64,000 nucleotides of DNA from Synechococcus sp. GreenBA-s (lineage in GTDB: Bacteria; Cyanobacteriota; Cyanobacteriia; PCC-6307; Cyanobiaceae): positions 1 through 64,000 of the forward strand of contig NZ_JAGQBX010000006.1 of NCBI RefSeq assembly GCF_024345855.1. The letters are read 5' to 3'. Within the stretch, counting starts at the first letter, position 1, and each line of letters begins with the position of its first letter. Made by a program: the position numbers and the translations under genes. The notes beneath the pieces are model-generated. The model had not been told where the DNA came from, ran no database searches, and was given only the letters and a program-made list of their open reading frames with translations. Positions 3,181 to 10,414 of this stretch are shown piece by piece.

Positions 3181-4506
3181 GTGAGCGCCCCGCCGACCCA
3201 GCCCCGACACCTGCCGCCCTCGCCAGCGGGGCCCGGCCGGAGGCTGGCGCCGGTGCCCACCGCGCTGGTCAGCGCGCTGCTGACGGCGGTCCTGCTGCTG
3301 CAGCCCGCCGCGGCCTGGGCCCTGAATGACGCCCAGCAGCTGGTGGTGGAGAGCTGGCGGCTGGTGAACCAGAGCTACGTGGATCCGGCCCGCTTCGAGG
3401 CGATCGGCTGGAAGCGGCTGCGCCAGAAGGCCCTCGAACGCCCGATCCAGACGAGCGGCGACGCCTACGACGTCATCGAGGCCCTGCTCGCCCCCATCGG
3501 CGACCCCTACACCCGCCTGCTGCGGCCGGCCGAATACGCCAGCCTGCGCTCCAACACCCAGGGCAGCGTCAGCGGCGTGGGGCTGCAGCTGGGGCTCAGC
3601 GGCAGCACGGCGGCGAGCGACGCCGCGATCGTGGTGATCGCCCCCCTGGAGGATTCCCCCGCCGATGAGGCCGGCATCAGCAGCGGCACGGCCGTGCTGC
3701 GGGTGGATGGGCTCGAGACGCAGAGCCTCGGCTTGGAGGGCACCGCGGCGCGGCTGCGGGGCGCGGCGGGCACGCGGGTGCTGCTGACGTTGCAGTCCCC
3801 CGGCGGGCGGCCACGGGAGCTGGAGCTGCAGCGGCGCACGGTGGACCTGCATCCCGTGCGCAGCCGCCTGATCGAGAACGGCGGCCATCGCCTCGGTTAT
3901 CTGCGCATCAGCCAGTTCGCCGAACCCGTGCCCCAGCAGGTGCAGGACGGCCTGGAGCAGCTGCAGCGGGATGGGGCCGAAGGGCTGATCCTGGATCTGC
4001 GCAACAACTCGGGCGGCCTGGTGGCGGCAGGCCTGGCCGTGGCCGATGCGCTGCTGGATGGCGAGCCGATCGTGGAAACCCGCAACCGGGAGGGCTTCGC
4101 CGATGCCCAGCAGGCCCACCGGGGCCTGCTCTATGGCGGCCCGATGGTGACCCTGGTGAACGCGGGCACCGCCAGTGCCAGCGAGATCCTGGCCGGCGCC
4201 CTCCAGGACGACGGCCGCTCACCCCTGCTGGGCAGCCGCACCTTCGGCAAGGGTCTGATCCAGACCCTGATCGGGCTGGGCAGCGACGGCAGCGGCCTGG
4301 CGGTGACCGTGGCCCGCTACGTGACCCCCAGCGGCCGCGACATCCAGAACCTCGGCATCGAACCGGACCGGCTGCTGCCCGGCCCCGAGCCGCTGGACCC
4401 CGGTGGAGCCGAGGACCACTGGCTGGAGGCGGCGGCCGCCCAGCTGGCGCACCAGCTTGATGGCCCGGCGGCAGGGCCGGCCAGGGCCGGGCAGGAGGCC
4501 GGCTGA
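3181..4506 (+). CDS. C-terminal processing peptidase, S41 family
   Basis: A 441-residue protease with an N-terminal hydrophobic export segment (around residues 25-46, ending ...AAAWAL), a PDZ domain in the middle and the S41 catalytic core. By alignment to E. coli Tsp (Ser430/Asp441/Lys455), the residues are Ser332 in GTASASE, Asp343, and Lys357 in TFGKG, with the same 25-residue Ser-Lys spacing. The family includes CtpA, which matures the D1 protein, and paralogues CtpB and CtpZ; I cannot tell which one this is. GTG at 3181 is chosen because AGGA lies 6 bases before it and the petB -10 box lies upstream. A TTG at 3148 is the alternative. Its stop overlaps the next gene's start (TGATG). Confidence 0.88.
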   Translation: MSAPPTQPRHLPPSPAGPGRRLAPVPTALVSALLTAVLLLQPAAAWALNDAQQLVVESWRLVNQSYVDPARFEAIGWKRLRQKALERPIQTSGDAYDVIEALLAPIGDPYTRLLRPAEYASLRSNTQGSVSGVGLQLGLSGSTAASDAAIVVIAPLEDSPADEAGISSGTAVLRVDGLETQSLGLEGTAARLRGAAGTRVLLTLQSPGGRPRELELQRRTVDLHPVRSRLIENGGHRLGYLRISQFAEPVPQQVQDGLEQLQRDGAEGLILDLRNNSGGLVAAGLAVADALLDGEPIVETRNREGFADAQQAHRGLLYGGPMVTLVNAGTASASEILAGALQDDGRSPLLGSRTFGKGLIQTLIGLGSDGSGLAVTVARYVTPSGRDIQNLGIEPDRLLPGPEPLDPGGAEDHWLEAAAAQLAHQLDGPAAGPARAGQEAG

Positions 4507-5765
4507 TGGGTCCGCGCACCTACCACGACCCGCTGCACGGGGCGATCCGCCTGGACCCGCACCATCCGGCCGAGGCCCTGGCGATCGACCTGATCGACAC
4601 GGCTCCCTTCCAGAGGCTGCGGCGCATCCGCCAGCTCGGCCCGGCCTTCCTCACCTTCCACGGGGCCGAATCCAGCCGCTTCACCCACTCCCTGGGGGTG
4701 CTGCACCTGGCGCGCCAGGCCCTCGATGGGCTGGCCGCCCAGGCTCCCCAGCTGGAGGAGCACCGGGGCGTACTGCTGGCGGCGGCGCTGCTGCACGACC
4801 TGGGGCACGCCCCCCTGAGCCACTCGGGCGAGGAGATGTATGGCCTGCGCCACGAGAGCTGGTCGGGCCGGCTGATCCGCGAGCACCCCGCCCTGCGCCA
4901 GCGGCTCGAGGCCTACGCCCCCGGCACGGCCGATGCGGTGGCGGACCTGCTGGAGCACGGCCGCTACGACCAGCCCGCCATCAAGGCCCTGGTGAGCAGC
5001 CAGCTGGACTGCGACCGGCTCGACTACCTGCTGCGCGACAGCTACAGCACCGGCACCCGCTACGGCCAGCTGGATCTGGAGCGGATCCTGGCCGCCCTCA
5101 CCCTCGCGCCCGACGGCCAGCTGGCCCTGCACCCCAAGGGCCTGATGGCCGTGGAGCACTACCTGGTGGTGCGCAACCTGATGTATCGGAGCGTCTACAA
5201 CCACCGGCTCAACGTGGTGTGCAACTGGCTGCTGAGCCAGGTGATCGCCACCGCCCGGCGGCTGGGGCCCAGCCAGCTGGAGGCCGATGCGGTGATGGCC
5301 GGCTGGCTGTGGCAGCCGGACGCCCTTGACCTGGAGACCTACCTGGCCAACGACGACCTGCGCACCGGCTACCACCTGCTGCGCTGGCGGGAGGAGGGTC
5401 CGGAGCCGCTGCGGGGGCTCTGCGCCCGGCTGCTGGATCGGCGCCTGCTCAAGGCCACGGCGGTGACGGAGCTGCGCCCCGAGCGGCGGCTGGAGTTCCT
5501 GGCCCGGGCCCGGGCCCTGAGCGGCGCGGCGGGCCTGGATCCGGAGAGCTGCTGCGGGCTGCAGCAGCGGGAGAGCCGCGGCTACCACCCCTACAAAGGA
5601 GGGCTGCGCCTGTGGGACGGCCAGCGCCTGGCGGCCCTGGAGGCCAGCTCGGCCCTGGTGACCAGCCTCAGCCAGCCGGTGCAGACCGCCTGGCTGATCC
5701 ACCCGGCCGAGGTGAGCCCGGTGCTGCGCGAGGAGCTGGCGCTGGCCCTGGCCGATGGCCGGTAG
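4506..5765 (+). CDS. HD-domain phosphohydrolase (dGTPase-like superfamily)
   Basis: A 419-residue soluble protein of the HD superfamily related to dNTP triphosphohydrolases (YdhJ/SAMHD1-like). The metal-binding residues are visible as His61 in RFTHSLG, His97-Asp98 in LLHDLGHAP, and a downstream Asp in QLDCDRLDYL. The N-terminal YHDPLHGAI block is typical of this subgroup. It is translationally coupled to the upstream protease (one-base overlap) and sits 38 bases before minC, so the three genes probably share a transcript. The substrate is not known; nucleotide hydrolysis is the family expectation. Confidence 0.85.
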   Translation: MGPRTYHDPLHGAIRLDPHHPAEALAIDLIDTAPFQRLRRIRQLGPAFLTFHGAESSRFTHSLGVLHLARQALDGLAAQAPQLEEHRGVLLAAALLHDLGHAPLSHSGEEMYGLRHESWSGRLIREHPALRQRLEAYAPGTADAVADLLEHGRYDQPAIKALVSSQLDCDRLDYLLRDSYSTGTRYGQLDLERILAALTLAPDGQLALHPKGLMAVEHYLVVRNLMYRSVYNHRLNVVCNWLLSQVIATARRLGPSQLEADAVMAGWLWQPDALDLETYLANDDLRTGYHLLRWREEGPEPLRGLCARLLDRRLLKATAVTELRPERRLEFLARARALSGAAGLDPESCCGLQQRESRGYHPYKGGLRLWDGQRLAALEASSALVTSLSQPVQTAWLIHPAEVSPVLREELALALADGR

Positions 5766-5803
5766 TGGGATGCTGGCCCAGCTGAGATGTCCGCCCCGGT
5801 GAG

Positions 5804-6487
5804 ATGGCCGCCCTGCTGACACCGGCCCAGGCCCCTGGCCTGCCCCACCAGCTGCAGCTGCCGATCAGCCGCAGCGCCGGCAACGGCGCCCTGGCGGAGG
5901 TGCGCCACGGCCTCGGCAGCCGGCCCCCCCGCGGTGCGCTGGTGCTGCACAGCCGCGACTGGCCGCTGACCCTGCCGGAGCTGCGGGCGCTGCAGCAGCT
6001 GCTGGAGGGCGTGGGCCTCACGCTGGAGCGGGTGGAGGGCAGCCGGGCCGAGACCCTGGTGGCCGCCGCGGCCATGGGCCTGGCCACCGGGCTGCGCAGC
6101 GAACCGGACGTGGAGGCCGGGGGGGAAGCGGATCGGCCCGCAGCGGCGCTCACGATTCACCAGGGCACCCTGCGCTCCGGCGACCACCTGCAGGCCGAGG
6201 GGTCGGTGCTGCTGCTGGGGGACGTGAACCCCGGCGCCCGCATCTCGGCGGTGGGGGATGTGCGGGTGTGGGGACGGCTGCGGGGCGTGGCCCACGCCGG
6301 CTGCCGCGGCGATGGCAGCGCCCGGATCGTGGCCCTGCAGCTGCGGCCCCTGCAGCTGCGCATCGCCGCGGCCGTGGCCCGGGGGCCCGAGGATCAGCCC
6401 CCCGCAGGCTTCACCGAGGAGGCGGTGCTGGAGGGAGGGGCGATCGCGATCCGGCCGGCCGAACCCACCTGGCCCCTCAGCGGTTGA
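5804..6487 (+). CDS. minC: Septum site-determining protein MinC
   Basis: A 227-residue MinC. The C-terminal beta-helix domain (about residues 115-215) carries the signature LLLGDVNPGARISAVGDVRVWG followed by GVAHAGCRGD. The N-terminal half is divergent, as is usual in cyanobacteria. It inhibits FtsZ ring formation away from mid-cell together with MinD. GGTGAG precedes the ATG. Unlike a normal min operon, minD and minE are separated from it by three genes on the opposite strand. The 3' end overlaps the convergent transporter gene by 11 bases. Confidence 0.92.
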   Translation: MAALLTPAQAPGLPHQLQLPISRSAGNGALAEVRHGLGSRPPRGALVLHSRDWPLTLPELRALQQLLEGVGLTLERVEGSRAETLVAAAAMGLATGLRSEPDVEAGGEADRPAAALTIHQGTLRSGDHLQAEGSVLLLGDVNPGARISAVGDVRVWGRLRGVAHAGCRGDGSARIVALQLRPLQLRIAAAVARGPEDQPPAGFTEEAVLEGGAIAIRPAEPTWPLSG

Positions 6488-7064
6488 TCAGCCCCAGACC
6501 GCCCAGCACCCCAGCCACGGCCATGAACCACAGGGGCGAGACGCGGGTGCGCAGCATCAGCGTGCACACCAGCAGGGACACCAGCAGGGCGGGCAGATCG
6601 TGGTCTGCGGTGCGCAGGATCTTGACGCCCACCCCGAACAGGATGCCCAGGGTGATCGGGCCCAGGCCCCGCTCGAAGGCGACGCGGAACGGCGAATCCT
6701 TGAAGCGATTCCAGCCCAGGGCCGCCGCCACCATCACCAGGGTGGAGGGCAGCAGGATCGCCGCCTCCGCCACCACGCCGCTGAGCAGGGCCCAGAACGG
6801 CCCCTCGCGCCAGGCGGCCCCCATCCCCAGCAGCCCCACGATCATCGAACTGGGCCCGGGCGCCGCTTCCGCCAGGGCGTAGAGGTCGGCGAACTGGCGG
6901 GAGGTGAGCCAGCAGAATTTGTCGACGCTGAGGTGGTGATACTCGGCCAGCAGGGTGTTGCCGCCGCCCAGGGAGAACAGCGACAGGCTCAGGAAATCCC
7001 AGAGCACCGCCGCCAGGTTGGCGAGGTCGGTGAGGCTGGCCGGCTGGCAGGCGACCGCACTCAT
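6477..7064 (-). CDS. Chromate transporter family, second half-size subunit
   Basis: A 195-residue membrane protein of the CHR family in its short, single-domain form. It shows the family features SLFSLGGGNTLL near the N-terminus and ALAEAAPGPSS before the main hydrophobic block. Short CHR proteins come as adjacent pairs, and its start overlaps the stop of the first half by 4 bases (ATGA). The family is named for chromate efflux, but the physiological anion of cyanobacterial members is uncertain; sulfate-like oxyanions are plausible. Its 3' end overlaps minC on the opposite strand. Confidence 0.85.
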   Translation of the reverse strand: MSAVACQPASLTDLANLAAVLWDFLSLSLFSLGGGNTLLAEYHHLSVDKFCWLTSRQFADLYALAEAAPGPSSMIVGLLGMGAAWREGPFWALLSGVVAEAAILLPSTLVMVAAALGWNRFKDSPFRVAFERGLGPITLGILFGVGVKILRTADHDLPALLVSLLVCTLMLRTRVSPLWFMAVAGVLGGLGLINR

Positions 7065-7681
7065 GGCTCAGGCCCGGCGGCAGGGGACGGCTGGCGAGGC
7101 GAGCGCGGCCAGTAGATGGCCATGGCGATCGGCCCCAGCACCAGCACCAGCGGAATCAGCCGCACGTGGAACACGTCCATGGCCAGAAAGCTGGCCGCCG
7201 CCAGCAGCAGGGCCAGGGGGTCGCGGCGGTACTCACCCAGGATCTTGAAACCCATCGAGAGGGCCATGCCGGCCGCCGCGGCCACCACCCCGGCCAGCAC
7301 CCGGTCCACCGCCGTCACCAGGTGGAGGTAGAAGTAGGCGAGCCCGATCAGCAGCAGCACGCTGAAGGGCAGCAGCAGCATTCCCGCCAGGGCCGCCAGG
7401 GCACCGGCCAGGCCGTGGAAGCGGGCGCCGATGTAGACGGCCATGTTGATCTGGTTGGGCCCCGGGAACAGGCGGGCCACGGTGAGGCCCGTGATGAACT
7501 CCTCGTTGCTCATCCAGCGGCGGTTCTCCACCACGATCCGCTGGCTCCAGGCCGAGAGGCCGCCGCCGAAGGAGGAGAGCGCCACCTGCTGCATGCCCAG
7601 GAACAGCGCCGCCAGCGACGGGGGCGATGCCGCCGGGGCAGCGGGCGGTGGGGTCACACTGGGTGGCGGGGAGCTGGCCAT
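7061..7681 (-). CDS. Chromate transporter family, first half-size subunit
   Basis: A 206-residue CHR-family membrane protein and partner of the following gene. After a Pro/Ala-rich N-terminus (about 25 residues) come the signatures LSSFGGGLSAW and ARLFPGPNQIN, followed by several hydrophobic segments. Paired half-size CHR proteins work as a heterodimer with opposite membrane topologies. It lies immediately downstream of the phospholipase D-like gene on the same strand (5 bases between them), so the three genes look like one operon. Confidence 0.86.
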   Translation of the reverse strand: MASSPPPSVTPPPAAPAASPPSLAALFLGMQQVALSSFGGGLSAWSQRIVVENRRWMSNEEFITGLTVARLFPGPNQINMAVYIGARFHGLAGALAALAGMLLLPFSVLLLIGLAYFYLHLVTAVDRVLAGVVAAAAGMALSMGFKILGEYRRDPLALLLAAASFLAMDVFHVRLIPLVLVLGPIAMAIYWPRSPRQPSPAAGPEP

Positions 7682-7686
7682 GCCGC

Positions 7687-8685
7687 TCAGTTGTGCACGA
7701 AGTGGGGATCGGGCGGTAGCTCGCCCTCCTCGTGGAGGCTGGGATCGAGGGGATCGGGGGCCCGGTACTTGGCGGCCTCGGCCCAGTCGGCCTCGAAGGT
7801 GGCCTTGAGCCGCGCCACCACCTCGGGGGCATCGGACTCGATCCCCAGCTCGCGGCGCAGGTCGAAGGCGCTGCGGTCGATGTTCATGGAGCCGGTCTGG
7901 GCTGCGATGCCATCGATGAGGATCAGCTTGGCGTGCAGCTTGAGGTGCTTCTGGCGCCGAACCTTCACCCCGAAGCGCCCCATCAGCCGCAGGGAACTGA
8001 AGGTGTCATAGATGTCCCAGTCGCTGATGCCGTGCTTGCCGCCGCACAGCACCCGCACCTTCACGCCGCGCTCCCGGGCCGCGATGATCCGCTCGAGGAT
8101 CACCGCATCCACGAACTTGGGGTGCTGGATCCAGAGGGTGCTGGTGGCCGCATCCACGATCCGGGCCATCTGACCGCGGCTGTGGAAGCTGCTCCAGACC
8201 AGCCCGACGCCGAGATCGGGCTGGAAGAACTGCCGGTGCCAGTCGGCCTCGAAGCCGGCGATCACCTGGGCCACCACCTCGGGGGCGTAGGTGACCACGC
8301 CGTAGTCCCGGGTCTGGGTGAAGTATTTGTCGGCCAGATTGAAGGTGGAGATCAGGGCCAGCTCCCGGTCCACCACCAGCGACTTTTCGTGGGTCACCGG
8401 GAAGGCCTCGCTGGTCCAGGCCACCTCGATCTGCCAGCTCTGCAGCAGGGCGTAGGCCTCGTCGTTCCAGCGGTCGCCGGCGGAGGTGTGGGGGTTGAGC
8501 ATCACCCGCACCCGCACGCCCCGCTCGCGGGCGCGGTGCAGGGCCTCCTCCACCTCCCGCGACTGGAGCTTGAACTGCTTGAGCAGCAGCTGCTCGCGGG
8601 CCTGGTCGATCAGCTCCACCACGGCCTGCACCCCGTCGTCGGGCATCACCAGCAGCCGCTGCCGGTGGTCGGGGGAGGGGGTCAT
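7687..8685 (-). CDS. Phospholipase D-like / cardiolipin synthase-type enzyme
   Basis: A 332-residue protein with two HKD motifs, HEKSLVVD and HAKLILID, each followed by the expected Gly/Ser-Asn residues (STFN and GSMN). Two such halves make one active site in the phospholipase D superfamily. Members transfer phosphatidyl groups (cardiolipin synthase) or cut phosphodiesters, and the sequence does not decide which. There is no signal peptide or membrane segment. ATG at 8685 (MTPSPDH) is preferred because the 24-residue upstream extension has no family character. It heads the opposite-strand block lying between minC and minD. Confidence 0.85.
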   Translation of the reverse strand: MTPSPDHRQRLLVMPDDGVQAVVELIDQAREQLLLKQFKLQSREVEEALHRARERGVRVRVMLNPHTSAGDRWNDEAYALLQSWQIEVAWTSEAFPVTHEKSLVVDRELALISTFNLADKYFTQTRDYGVVTYAPEVVAQVIAGFEADWHRQFFQPDLGVGLVWSSFHSRGQMARIVDAATSTLWIQHPKFVDAVILERIIAARERGVKVRVLCGGKHGISDWDIYDTFSSLRLMGRFGVKVRRQKHLKLHAKLILIDGIAAQTGSMNIDRSAFDLRRELGIESDAPEVVARLKATFEADWAEAAKYRAPDPLDPSLHEEGELPPDPHFVHN

Positions 8686-8773
8686 CGCGGGCCGTTCGGG
8701 CCTCCGTGTTCTAGACCCCACCAGCGGCGCGGCAGGGACAGCCGGAACACGGACCAAATCCGGGGGTTCGTCT

Positions 8774-8792
8774 TAGCCTGCCCCGACGTCGG
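8774..8792 (+). promoter_or_regulatory. Candidate minD -10 box and adjoining palindrome
   Basis: TAGCCT (8774-8779) lies 21 bases before the minD GTG. It is followed at once by the perfect 10-bp palindrome CCGACGTCGG (8783-8792). The palindrome would fall at the transcription start or in the leader and could be an operator. Neither element has been tested. Confidence 0.35.
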
Positions 8793-8800
8793 ACGTTGCC

Positions 8801-9619
8801 GTGACCGCTCCAGGGACCCGCTACATCCTGATCTGCTCCGGCAAGGGGGGCGTCGGGAAGACCACCCTCACGGCCAACCTGGGCATCGCCCTGGCCCGGC
8901 AGGGGGTGCGCACGGCGGTGCTGGACGCGGACTTCGGCCTGCGCAACCTGGACCTGCTGCTGGGCCTGGAGAACCGCATCGTGTTCACCGCCCAGGAGGT
9001 GCTCTCGGGCAGCTGCCGCCTGGAGCAGGCCCTGGTGAAGCACAAGCAGGAGCCCAACCTGGCCCTGCTGCCGGCCGGCAACCCCCGCATGCTCGAGTGG
9101 CTCCAGCCGGAGGACATGCAGCGCATCGCCACCATGCTGGGCGAGCAGTTCGACGTGGTGCTGATCGACTGCCCGGCCGGCATCGAAGACGGCTTCAAGA
9201 ACGCGGTGGCCGCGGCCCAGGAGGCGATCGTGATCACCACCCCGGAGGTGTCCGCGGTGCGGGACGCCGACCGGGTGATCGGCCTGCTCAACAGCCACGG
9301 TGTCAAGCCGATCCAGCTGGTGCTCAACCGGGTGCGGCCCAAGATGATGGCCAACCAGGAGATGCTGAGCGTCGCCGATGTGACCGACATCCTGGCCCTG
9401 CCGCTCCTGGGCCTGGTGATGGAGGACGAGCAGGTGATCGTGTCCACCAACCGGGGCGAGCCGCTCACCCTCAACGGCGCCAAGTCGCCGGCGGCTCTGG
9501 CCTACAACAACATCGCCCGGCGCCTGCGCGGCGAGGACGTGCCGTTGATGGATCCCGCCAAGGCCGGCCGGGGCCTGCGGGCCAAGCTCGGCCGCCTGAT
9601 GACCACCAAGATCTTCTGA
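8801..9619 (+). CDS. minD: Septum site-determining protein MinD (ATPase)
   Basis: A 272-residue ParA/MinD ATPase. The deviant Walker A motif KGGVGKT is at residues 15-21, the Walker B-like VVLIDCPAG is near residue 125, and a C-terminal amphipathic membrane-targeting helix ([10 protein letters not shown]) closes the protein. It binds membrane with ATP, recruits MinC and is released by MinE. The start is GTG. It is followed by minE after 4 bases. Confidence 0.97.
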
Positions 9620-9623
9620 AGCG

Positions 9624-9950
9624 ATGACCCTCCGCGACTTCATCGACAAGCTGCTCGGTCGTCAGCCCGCCAGCGCCAATGTGGCCCGCGAACGGCTGCA
9701 GCTCGTGCTCGCCCACGACCGCAGCGACCTCAACCCCGAACTCCTGGAGCAGATGCGGCGCGAGATCCTCGAGGTGGTGAGCCGCTACGTGGAGATCGAC
9801 CTGGAGGAGGGCGACGTGAGCCTTGAGACCGGCGATCGGGTCACGGCCCTGGTGGCCAACCTGCCGATCAAGCGGGCCCGTCCCCTGGTGGAGCCCGGCA
9901 GCGCTGCTGGCGGCGTCAGCCGTAGCCACGGCCTGAACCCGGGTGCCTGA
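9624..9950 (+). CDS. minE: Cell division topological specificity factor MinE
   Basis: A 108-residue MinE. The N-terminal amphipathic segment ([11 protein letters not shown]) and MinD-stimulating region ([16 protein letters not shown]) are followed by the dimerisation domain. The C-terminal tail of about 20 residues is variable. It stimulates MinD ATPase and drives pole-to-pole oscillation. It is the second gene of the minDE unit. Confidence 0.96.
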
Positions 9951-10003
9951 AGCCCAGGCACCGGAACCGCGGGAACACTGCGGGCAGCGCAGCCGCCACG
10001 GCC

Positions 10004-10204
10004 ATGGCTCCCAACCTGTTCGCGATCACCGCCGGCGAATCCCTGGTGCTGGATCAGTTGCTGCAGGGCCACAGCAACAAGGGGATCGCCGCGGCCCTGG
10101 TGCTCAGCCCGCGCACGGTGGAGGGACACATCGGCAACCTGCTGGCCAAGACCGGCTGCCGCAACCGCACCCAGCTGCTGCTCTGGGCACTGCGGCAGAG
10201 ATAA
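10004..10204 (+). CDS. Small LuxR-type helix-turn-helix protein
   Basis: A 66-residue protein that is almost entirely a LuxR/GerE DNA-binding domain: LLQGHSNKGIAAALVLS, then PRTVEGHIGNLLAKTGCRNR. There is no receiver or ligand-binding domain, so it must be controlled by abundance or by a partner. Stand-alone GerE domains exist in cyanobacteria, but this one has no function I can name. It starts 53 bases after minE and ends just before tRNA-Thr. Confidence 0.72.
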   Translation: MAPNLFAITAGESLVLDQLLQGHSNKGIAAALVLSPRTVEGHIGNLLAKTGCRNRTQLLLWALRQR

Positions 10205-10211
10205 GCTCCCC

Positions 10212-10228
10212 ACGGGGCCACGCCCCGT
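10212..10228 (+). terminator. Hairpin between the LuxR-like gene and tRNA-Thr
   Basis: A perfect 7-bp stem (ACGGGGC/GCCCCGT) with a 3-base loop ends one base before the tRNA. It has no T-run, so it may be a weak terminator of the preceding gene or a processing signal for the tRNA. Confidence 0.35.
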
Positions 10229-10229
10229 C

Positions 10230-10301
10230 GCCGGCTTAGCTCAGTGGTAGAGCAGCGCTTTTGTAAAGCGAAGGCCATCGGTTCAAATCCGTTAGCCGGC
10301 T
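10230..10301 (+). tRNA. tRNA-Thr (anticodon TGT)
   Basis: A complete 72-base cloverleaf. The acceptor stem GCCGGCT/AGCCGGC is perfect, the D-arm is AGCTCAGTGGTAGAGC, the anticodon TGT is at 10262-10264, and the T-arm holds GGTTCAAATCC. The first anticodon-stem pair is a G-A mismatch. The discriminator base is T and CCA is not encoded. Confidence 0.96.
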
Positions 10302-10414
10302 TTTCGTGCAAGTGACCCTCAGTCCATCGACAGACTCTGCAAACCGCCCACCGCAGGTGTGGCAGCGCTCCGCCCCAGGAGGGGTACTGTTGACCAATAC
10401 CGTATTCGCGTTCC

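Follow-up and report, generated by a model that had tools for sequence, protein, structure and literature searches.

The min locus and its reversed gene block

The window analysed here is the whole 64,000-nt stretch at the start of contig NZ_JAGQBX010000006.1 of Synechococcus sp. GreenBA-s, in which three co-oriented minus-strand genes lie between minC and minD. On the plus strand, an HD-domain hydrolase gene (4506..5765, Pfam PF01966), which is the upstream neighbour of minC in carriers and non-carriers of the block alike, precedes minC (5804..6487), recognized by its MinC_C domain (1.2e-27) and by MinC NCBIfam matches under their cut-offs. The minus-strand block comprises chrC, encoding the second half of a short-chain CHR transporter (6477..7064; PF02417, 1.6e-29, aligned to TIGR00937 positions 196-368), chrN, encoding the first half (7061..7681; PF02417, 3.6e-29, TIGR00937 positions 6-157), and a gene for a PLD-superfamily enzyme with two HKD motifs (7687..8685, ATG start; PLDc_2, 2e-47, supported by residues in the alignment and a structure model). 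A divergent intergenic region (8686..8800), which spans 49-152 nt in the 22 carriers measured, separates this PLD gene from minD on the plus strand (8801..9619, GTG start; TIGR01968, 4e-105), and minE follows at 9624..9950 on the same strand (TIGR01215, 1.5e-27). Pfam and NCBIfam were concordant on MinC_C, both Chromate_transp domains, PLDc_2, MinD and MinE.

The junctions within the block are tight, with 5 nt from the PLD stop to the chrN start and a 4-nt overlap of chrN and chrC, and the ends of minC and chrC overlap by 11 nt (6477-6487). The first-pass annotation of this DNA had described min genes split by three co-oriented minus-strand genes, and every coordinate and junction that it gave was exact. 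The contiguity of minC, minD and minE expected of a Min operon is lacking here, as the block splits minC from minDE. PLD is matched once in the genome, and another CHR protein, more distant at 30% identity, is encoded elsewhere in it. The closest named relative found is Vulcanococcus limneticus LL, with 97% identity for PLD and 96% for MinD. Downstream of minE, positions 10004-10301 hold a LuxR-type open reading frame of 66 aa and a tRNA-Thr; the former was found again in many related loci and the tRNA in three (L061, L126 and L137).

Proteins encoded by the block

Two HxKxxxxD motifs (H99/K101/D106 and H251/K253/D258) place the first enzyme in the PLD superfamily. H99, D106, H251 and K253 are invariant in 81 PLD sequences, and K101 and D258 are each changed in one (L137 and L074, respectively). 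The structure model (mean pLDDT 85.7) found phospholipase D 7e0m as its best PDB match, with a TM score of 0.78 of the query, and the same fold search returned poxvirus F13 and PLD3, so that lipid- and DNA-acting relatives are both among the matches. The protein ends in a conserved C-terminal tail, PDPLDPxxHEEGELPPDPHFVH. Assignment as a cardiolipin synthase was rejected, with a score of 64.3 bits against the TIGR04265 equivalog cut-off of 290. ChrC (195 aa) and ChrN (206 aa) are adjacent mono-domain PF02417 proteins and hence constitute a short-chain CHR pair. Both halves score under the NCBIfam ChrA/ChrB equivalog and efflux-model cut-offs, and a sequence search of the PDB with ChrN reached a best E of only 0.69.

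In genus g35, three related genomes (L311, L312 and L313) retain PLD and have neither chr gene; L137 belongs to the L311 genome. K101T, N116D and N268S occur in all three of these chr-less PLDs, and the 79 other PLDs of the 80 named keep all three residues; we take N116 and N268 to be part of the extended HKD motif. Among the chr-less PLDs, dN/dS is 0.24-0.47, compared with 0.035-0.16 in PLDs with a chr pair, the values resting on few changes, and one chr-less PLD set against a paired relative gave 0.15. The PLD of L074 is a counter-example, carrying D258N though its chr genes are present. As a single lineage amounting to one event, this pattern suggests that PLD may need the CHR pair and that the three proteins may work together. 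A farther-reaching proposal, in which PLD and the CHR pair would form a single three-part system with transporter-dependent PLD activity and a place beside minC reflecting a real link between envelope and division, strikes us as improbable. The best-ranked titles and abstract openings from a literature search held no description of a PLD and CHR block beside min genes. The unit of PLD and bipartite CHR proteins is defined here, and its parts seem to decay together, which offers a testable pairing for the CHR family in cyanobacteria.

Distribution among relatives

An intact block was present in 36 of 121 sampled family genomes, leaving 85 of the 121 without one. Full-length PLD and chrN (at least 67% identity) occur in the identical set of 36, and match coordinates show PLD adjoining minD in divergent orientation in 36/36 carriers (37 places, G087 having two). 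For comparison, minD was matched in 109 of the 121 genomes (E<=1e-60), minC in 111 (E<=1e-8) and PLD in 37 (E<=1e-10), the 37th, G045, having a partial PLD; 15 further genomes yielded distant CHR matches only. In a 400-genome sample of the family, PLD was matched at E<=1e-40 in 119 genomes spanning 16 of 59 genera, and all six genomes matching at E<=1e-20 in a 291-genome sample of the class belong to the family.

The complete order minC-chrC-chrN-PLD-minD is conserved in 66 of 80 named loci and, because of this conservation, goes beyond chance. Seven other named loci end at contig edges yet are consistent with the full order (3, 2 and 2), five hold a block without min genes, one (L130) is a cut block lying at the same site as L139, and one (L137) reads minC-PLD-minD. 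Among the 68 loci in which all four genes were measurable, 43 show overlapping minC and chrC ends, most commonly by the 11 nt seen in the window (26/68). One contig titled Bifidobacterium breve (L133, CALPNT020000145.1) carries a picocyanobacterial PLD-chrN-chrC-minC-HD-S41 row with a PLD 83% identical, and is mislabelled or a contaminant.

Outside the family, 24 outgroup loci were taken from the 70 non-family genomes with a minD match. In 19 of them minC precedes minD on the same strand without a block, at match distances of 48-618 nt, two of which (561 and 618 nt) leave room for a small gene; the remaining five have no minC within the 1.5-kb flank of minD. Many non-carriers within the family, too, have minC directly before minD.

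Searches for a source of the block returned no donor. Its base composition carries no foreign signal, with GC of 0.68-0.71 (0.69-0.78 in six neighbouring genes) and GC3 of 0.92-0.95 (0.88-0.97 in these six). The 25 plasmid records found at E<=1e-5 were all under 60% identity (best 39%), and searches of the class and the phylum gave no donor either, the nearest PLD proteins outside the family being 33-39% identical. Twelve phylum genomes outside the family have a PLD match. No chr genes were detected beside the out-of-family PLD in seven surroundings, those of an Acidisarcina plasmid (L285, by annotation) and of six of these 12 genomes (L289-L294, with up to 1.5 kb on either side, contigs permitting, and L297-L300, which are longer stretches from four of the six).

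The block at other sites and its decay

The block occupies five chromosomal places in the family. Besides the interval between minC and minD, it lies between the HD gene and minC in two genomes (L295 and L296) of genus g34, which otherwise belongs to the marine-type lineage. Three further sites are unrelated: in L100, L104 and L116 the block is flanked by miaB-like and ddl-like genes, in L139 and L130 it adjoins an mnmG-like gene, and in L138, L301, L302 and L304 it lies close to rsmE-like and OsmC-like genes, these neighbours being named from reading translations; L303 comes from the L138 genome. The three genes thus move together as one unit, which supports this part of the earlier reading. 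In the genomes of L100, L104, L116, L139 and L130, minC stands directly before minD with gaps of 24-58 nt; the L138 genome gave no minD match. A duplicated minC as the origin of the HD|minC position was rejected, as in L295 and L296 the HD and chrC matches are just a few bases apart, leaving no minC remnant there.

Decay is visible at the min site itself. Between minC and minD, G068 retains a stub of chrC residues 152-195, and G045 retains chrC 161-195 together with PLD 7-180, about half of the enzyme. Five genomes (G083, G076, G072, G099 and G030) have minC and minD without a block, though congeners in g48, g35 and g30 are carriers. At two further loci, L216 and L217, 333 and 401 nt separate minC and minD, with no block remnant at E 1e-4.

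In RCC307 (L126:8491-9492), an opposite-strand HAD-phosphatase-like open reading frame, named from reading its translation, lies between HD and minC, and eight other RCC307-type loci show an HD-minC gap of similar size. In loci of this type, minC may be flanked by opposite-strand genes on both sides.

Phylogeny of hosts and blocks

Hosts were compared on an rpoB tree of 67 genomes, seven of them reached through loci and the other 60 drawn from the 113 sampled genomes in which rpoB was matched. The lineage names marine-type, Cyanobium-type and RCC307-type are our own assumption, drawn from a few named members (L138, L100, L116 and L126). All 8 RCC307-type rows have the block at the min site. 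Among 39 Cyanobium-type rows, a grouping with support of only 82/84, the block is at the min site in 25, elsewhere in 5, absent in 5, decayed in 3 and of unknown state in 1. It is absent from 15 of 16 marine-type rows, the other having it elsewhere, and from the 4 basal rows. Scored as a min-site block (decayed copies included) or not, this distribution takes at least six changes on the tree. AU tests on the order of the three main lineages rejected none of the three groupings (p 0.50, 0.27 and 0.39). This and the 82/84 support leave room for one insertion as well as for two.

On the block trees, the blocks of L100, L104 and L116 nest among min-site blocks, from which it follows that the block most likely left the min site in these genomes. 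L138-type blocks form a separate long branch on the block tree and fall among RCC307-type PLDs in a PLD tree rooted with distant proteins. Though found in hosts of the marine-type genus g34, the HD|minC blocks group with Cyanobium-type blocks, which suggests, from tree position, that they may have reached these hosts by transfer. AU tests rejected neither a single clade of HD|minC and L138-type blocks, that is, of that host lineage (p 0.128), nor a placement of the HD|minC blocks outside the Cyanobium-type ones (p 0.337). Where the chr pair is present, dN/dS of the block genes is 0.03-0.22.

A putative promoter element of minD

In many carriers, a -10-like element, GGCCTTAACCTG, precedes minD by about 28 nt; its exact core recurs in 40 of 72. 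In the window it reads TTAGCCT (8773..8779, plus strand), starts 28 nt before the minD start codon and has the block upstream of it; the element is conserved in carriers and in block-less relatives. With a profile trained on 40 carrier sequences and with uncorrected p-values computed per row from letter shuffles, p<=0.05 was reached in 60 of 72 carriers, 40 of which had trained the profile. The same threshold was reached in 12 of 12 Cyanobium-type rows without a block at the min site and in only 4 of the 25 other rows of this kind (16/37 in all), the latter 25 being marine-type, basal and three that genus did not place on the tree, with two stub rows and one PLD-only row excluded. Two of the Cyanobium-type genomes, G059 and G111, are absent from the rpoB tree and were so classed because their genus, g59, includes the carrier G087, with a similar min locus. 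In G083, where 19 nt separate the stop of minC from minD, the -10-like element overlaps the end of minC.

The minD-type element has no match upstream of minC, minE, HD or S41 in the window (p 0.21-0.53). A sigma-70 and terminator scan of 4400-10400 returned 0 promoter-like and 0 terminator-like sites, with no TTGACA-type match before minD. On the minus strand, GTTCTAG (plus-strand positions 8708..8714; minus strand CTAGAAC), partly conserved in an alignment of 23 sequences, may be the -10 element of the PLD operon. The presence of the motif in all 12 Cyanobium-type rows without the block at the min site indicates that the putative minD element does not depend on the block. The first-pass proposal that minD gained its own promoter after the insertion is thus not supported, though the motif was matched in few of the other rows.

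Origin and persistence of the block

Taken together, we consider an old operon insertion, followed by inheritance, losses and relocations, to be the probable history of this locus. An early ancestor of the family crown, which includes the Cyanobium/Vulcanococcus and RCC307-type lineages, would have acquired a reversed three-gene operon (PLD, first CHR half, second CHR half), presumably read as one transcript, between the end of minC and the promoter region of minD. The direction of change would be from uninterrupted to interrupted min genes. From then on, the block would have been passed down at the min site, with several losses and with relocations of the whole unit elsewhere. minD-minE are probably transcribed from a separate promoter that lies immediately after the block, and such a putative promoter would explain why the insertion was tolerated. 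The earlier reading of a ready-made operon inserted into the min genes is upheld, the unit being found at five places and 19 of 24 outgroup loci having minC before minD; recency is not, since many relatives share the block. The condition that would have spoken against insertion, an arrangement common to most relatives and hence ancestral, holds for this clade, although 85 of the 121 sampled family genomes have no intact block.

An insertion that reached this lineage's min operon recently and was followed by a new minD promoter would account for the outgroup order and for a reversed block with its own tight junctions. We regard it as extremely improbable, as the block is common to the 36 family genomes and to 25 of 39 Cyanobium-type rpoB rows, and the -10-like motif occurs in every Cyanobium-type row that lacks the block at the min site. 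Wider sampling has here corrected a single-genome reading of recent min disruption. Repeated entry at the min site, with the block spreading from one lineage to another through recombination in the min genes around it, is a possible but unlikely account: it draws on patchy presence within genera g18, g30, g35 and g48, on the mobility of the block as a unit and on the grouping of HD|minC with Cyanobium-type blocks, whereas the large block-tree groups roughly match the lineages and the stubs show loss, which is able to explain the patchiness.

The block could instead be linked in function to cell division or to the membrane that Min uses, with selection maintaining its place by minC. Its occurrence before minC in some lineages and after it in others, the long conservation of the arrangement and the relation of PLD to lipid-acting enzymes are in keeping with such a tie, which we nonetheless judge very improbable in view of three other sites where blocks persist with their sequence conserved and of the many family genomes without an intact one. 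Under the favoured history of an old insertion, the position beside minC might be mostly a historical accident. We also propose, more tentatively, that the CHR halves may form a bipartite oxyanion transporter, which the PLD-type phosphodiesterase would serve in some way. In Synechococcus PCC 7002, a mutant of A1320, a gene annotated as a chromate transporter, has a growth rate 64% of wild type under phosphate shortage (PMC11358556). More broadly, the case indicates that an operon on the opposite strand can persist within a conserved core locus over long evolutionary periods, probably thanks to a separate promoter for the genes that follow it.

Comparison with known systems

The window PLD shares its two HKD motifs and fold with a superfamily that includes phospholipase D, cardiolipin synthases, NucT nucleases and DrmC, but falls under every NCBIfam equivalog cut-off listed and has its own conserved C-terminal tail. 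DrmC profiles of the DISARM defence system are its best PADLOC and NCBIfam matches. Assignment to DISARM was nevertheless rejected: PLD scores 78.3 bits against the NF038319 cut-off of 133, it is surrounded by CHR, min, HD and S41 genes, and, in a PADLOC scan of the three block proteins, ChrN and ChrC had no match, so that no defence system is supported. The closest parallel to the transporter genes lies in the SCHR proteins, encoded by adjacent mono-domain CHR gene pairs such as ywrB-ywrA (chr3N/chr3C) of Bacillus subtilis (PMC8940164). As in that pair, two neighbouring genes encode a first and a second half of about 200 residues each; both halves match PF02417. Unlike ywrB-ywrA, the pair in the min block is preceded by a PLD gene in an operon-like row and has no regulator gene beside it in the block.
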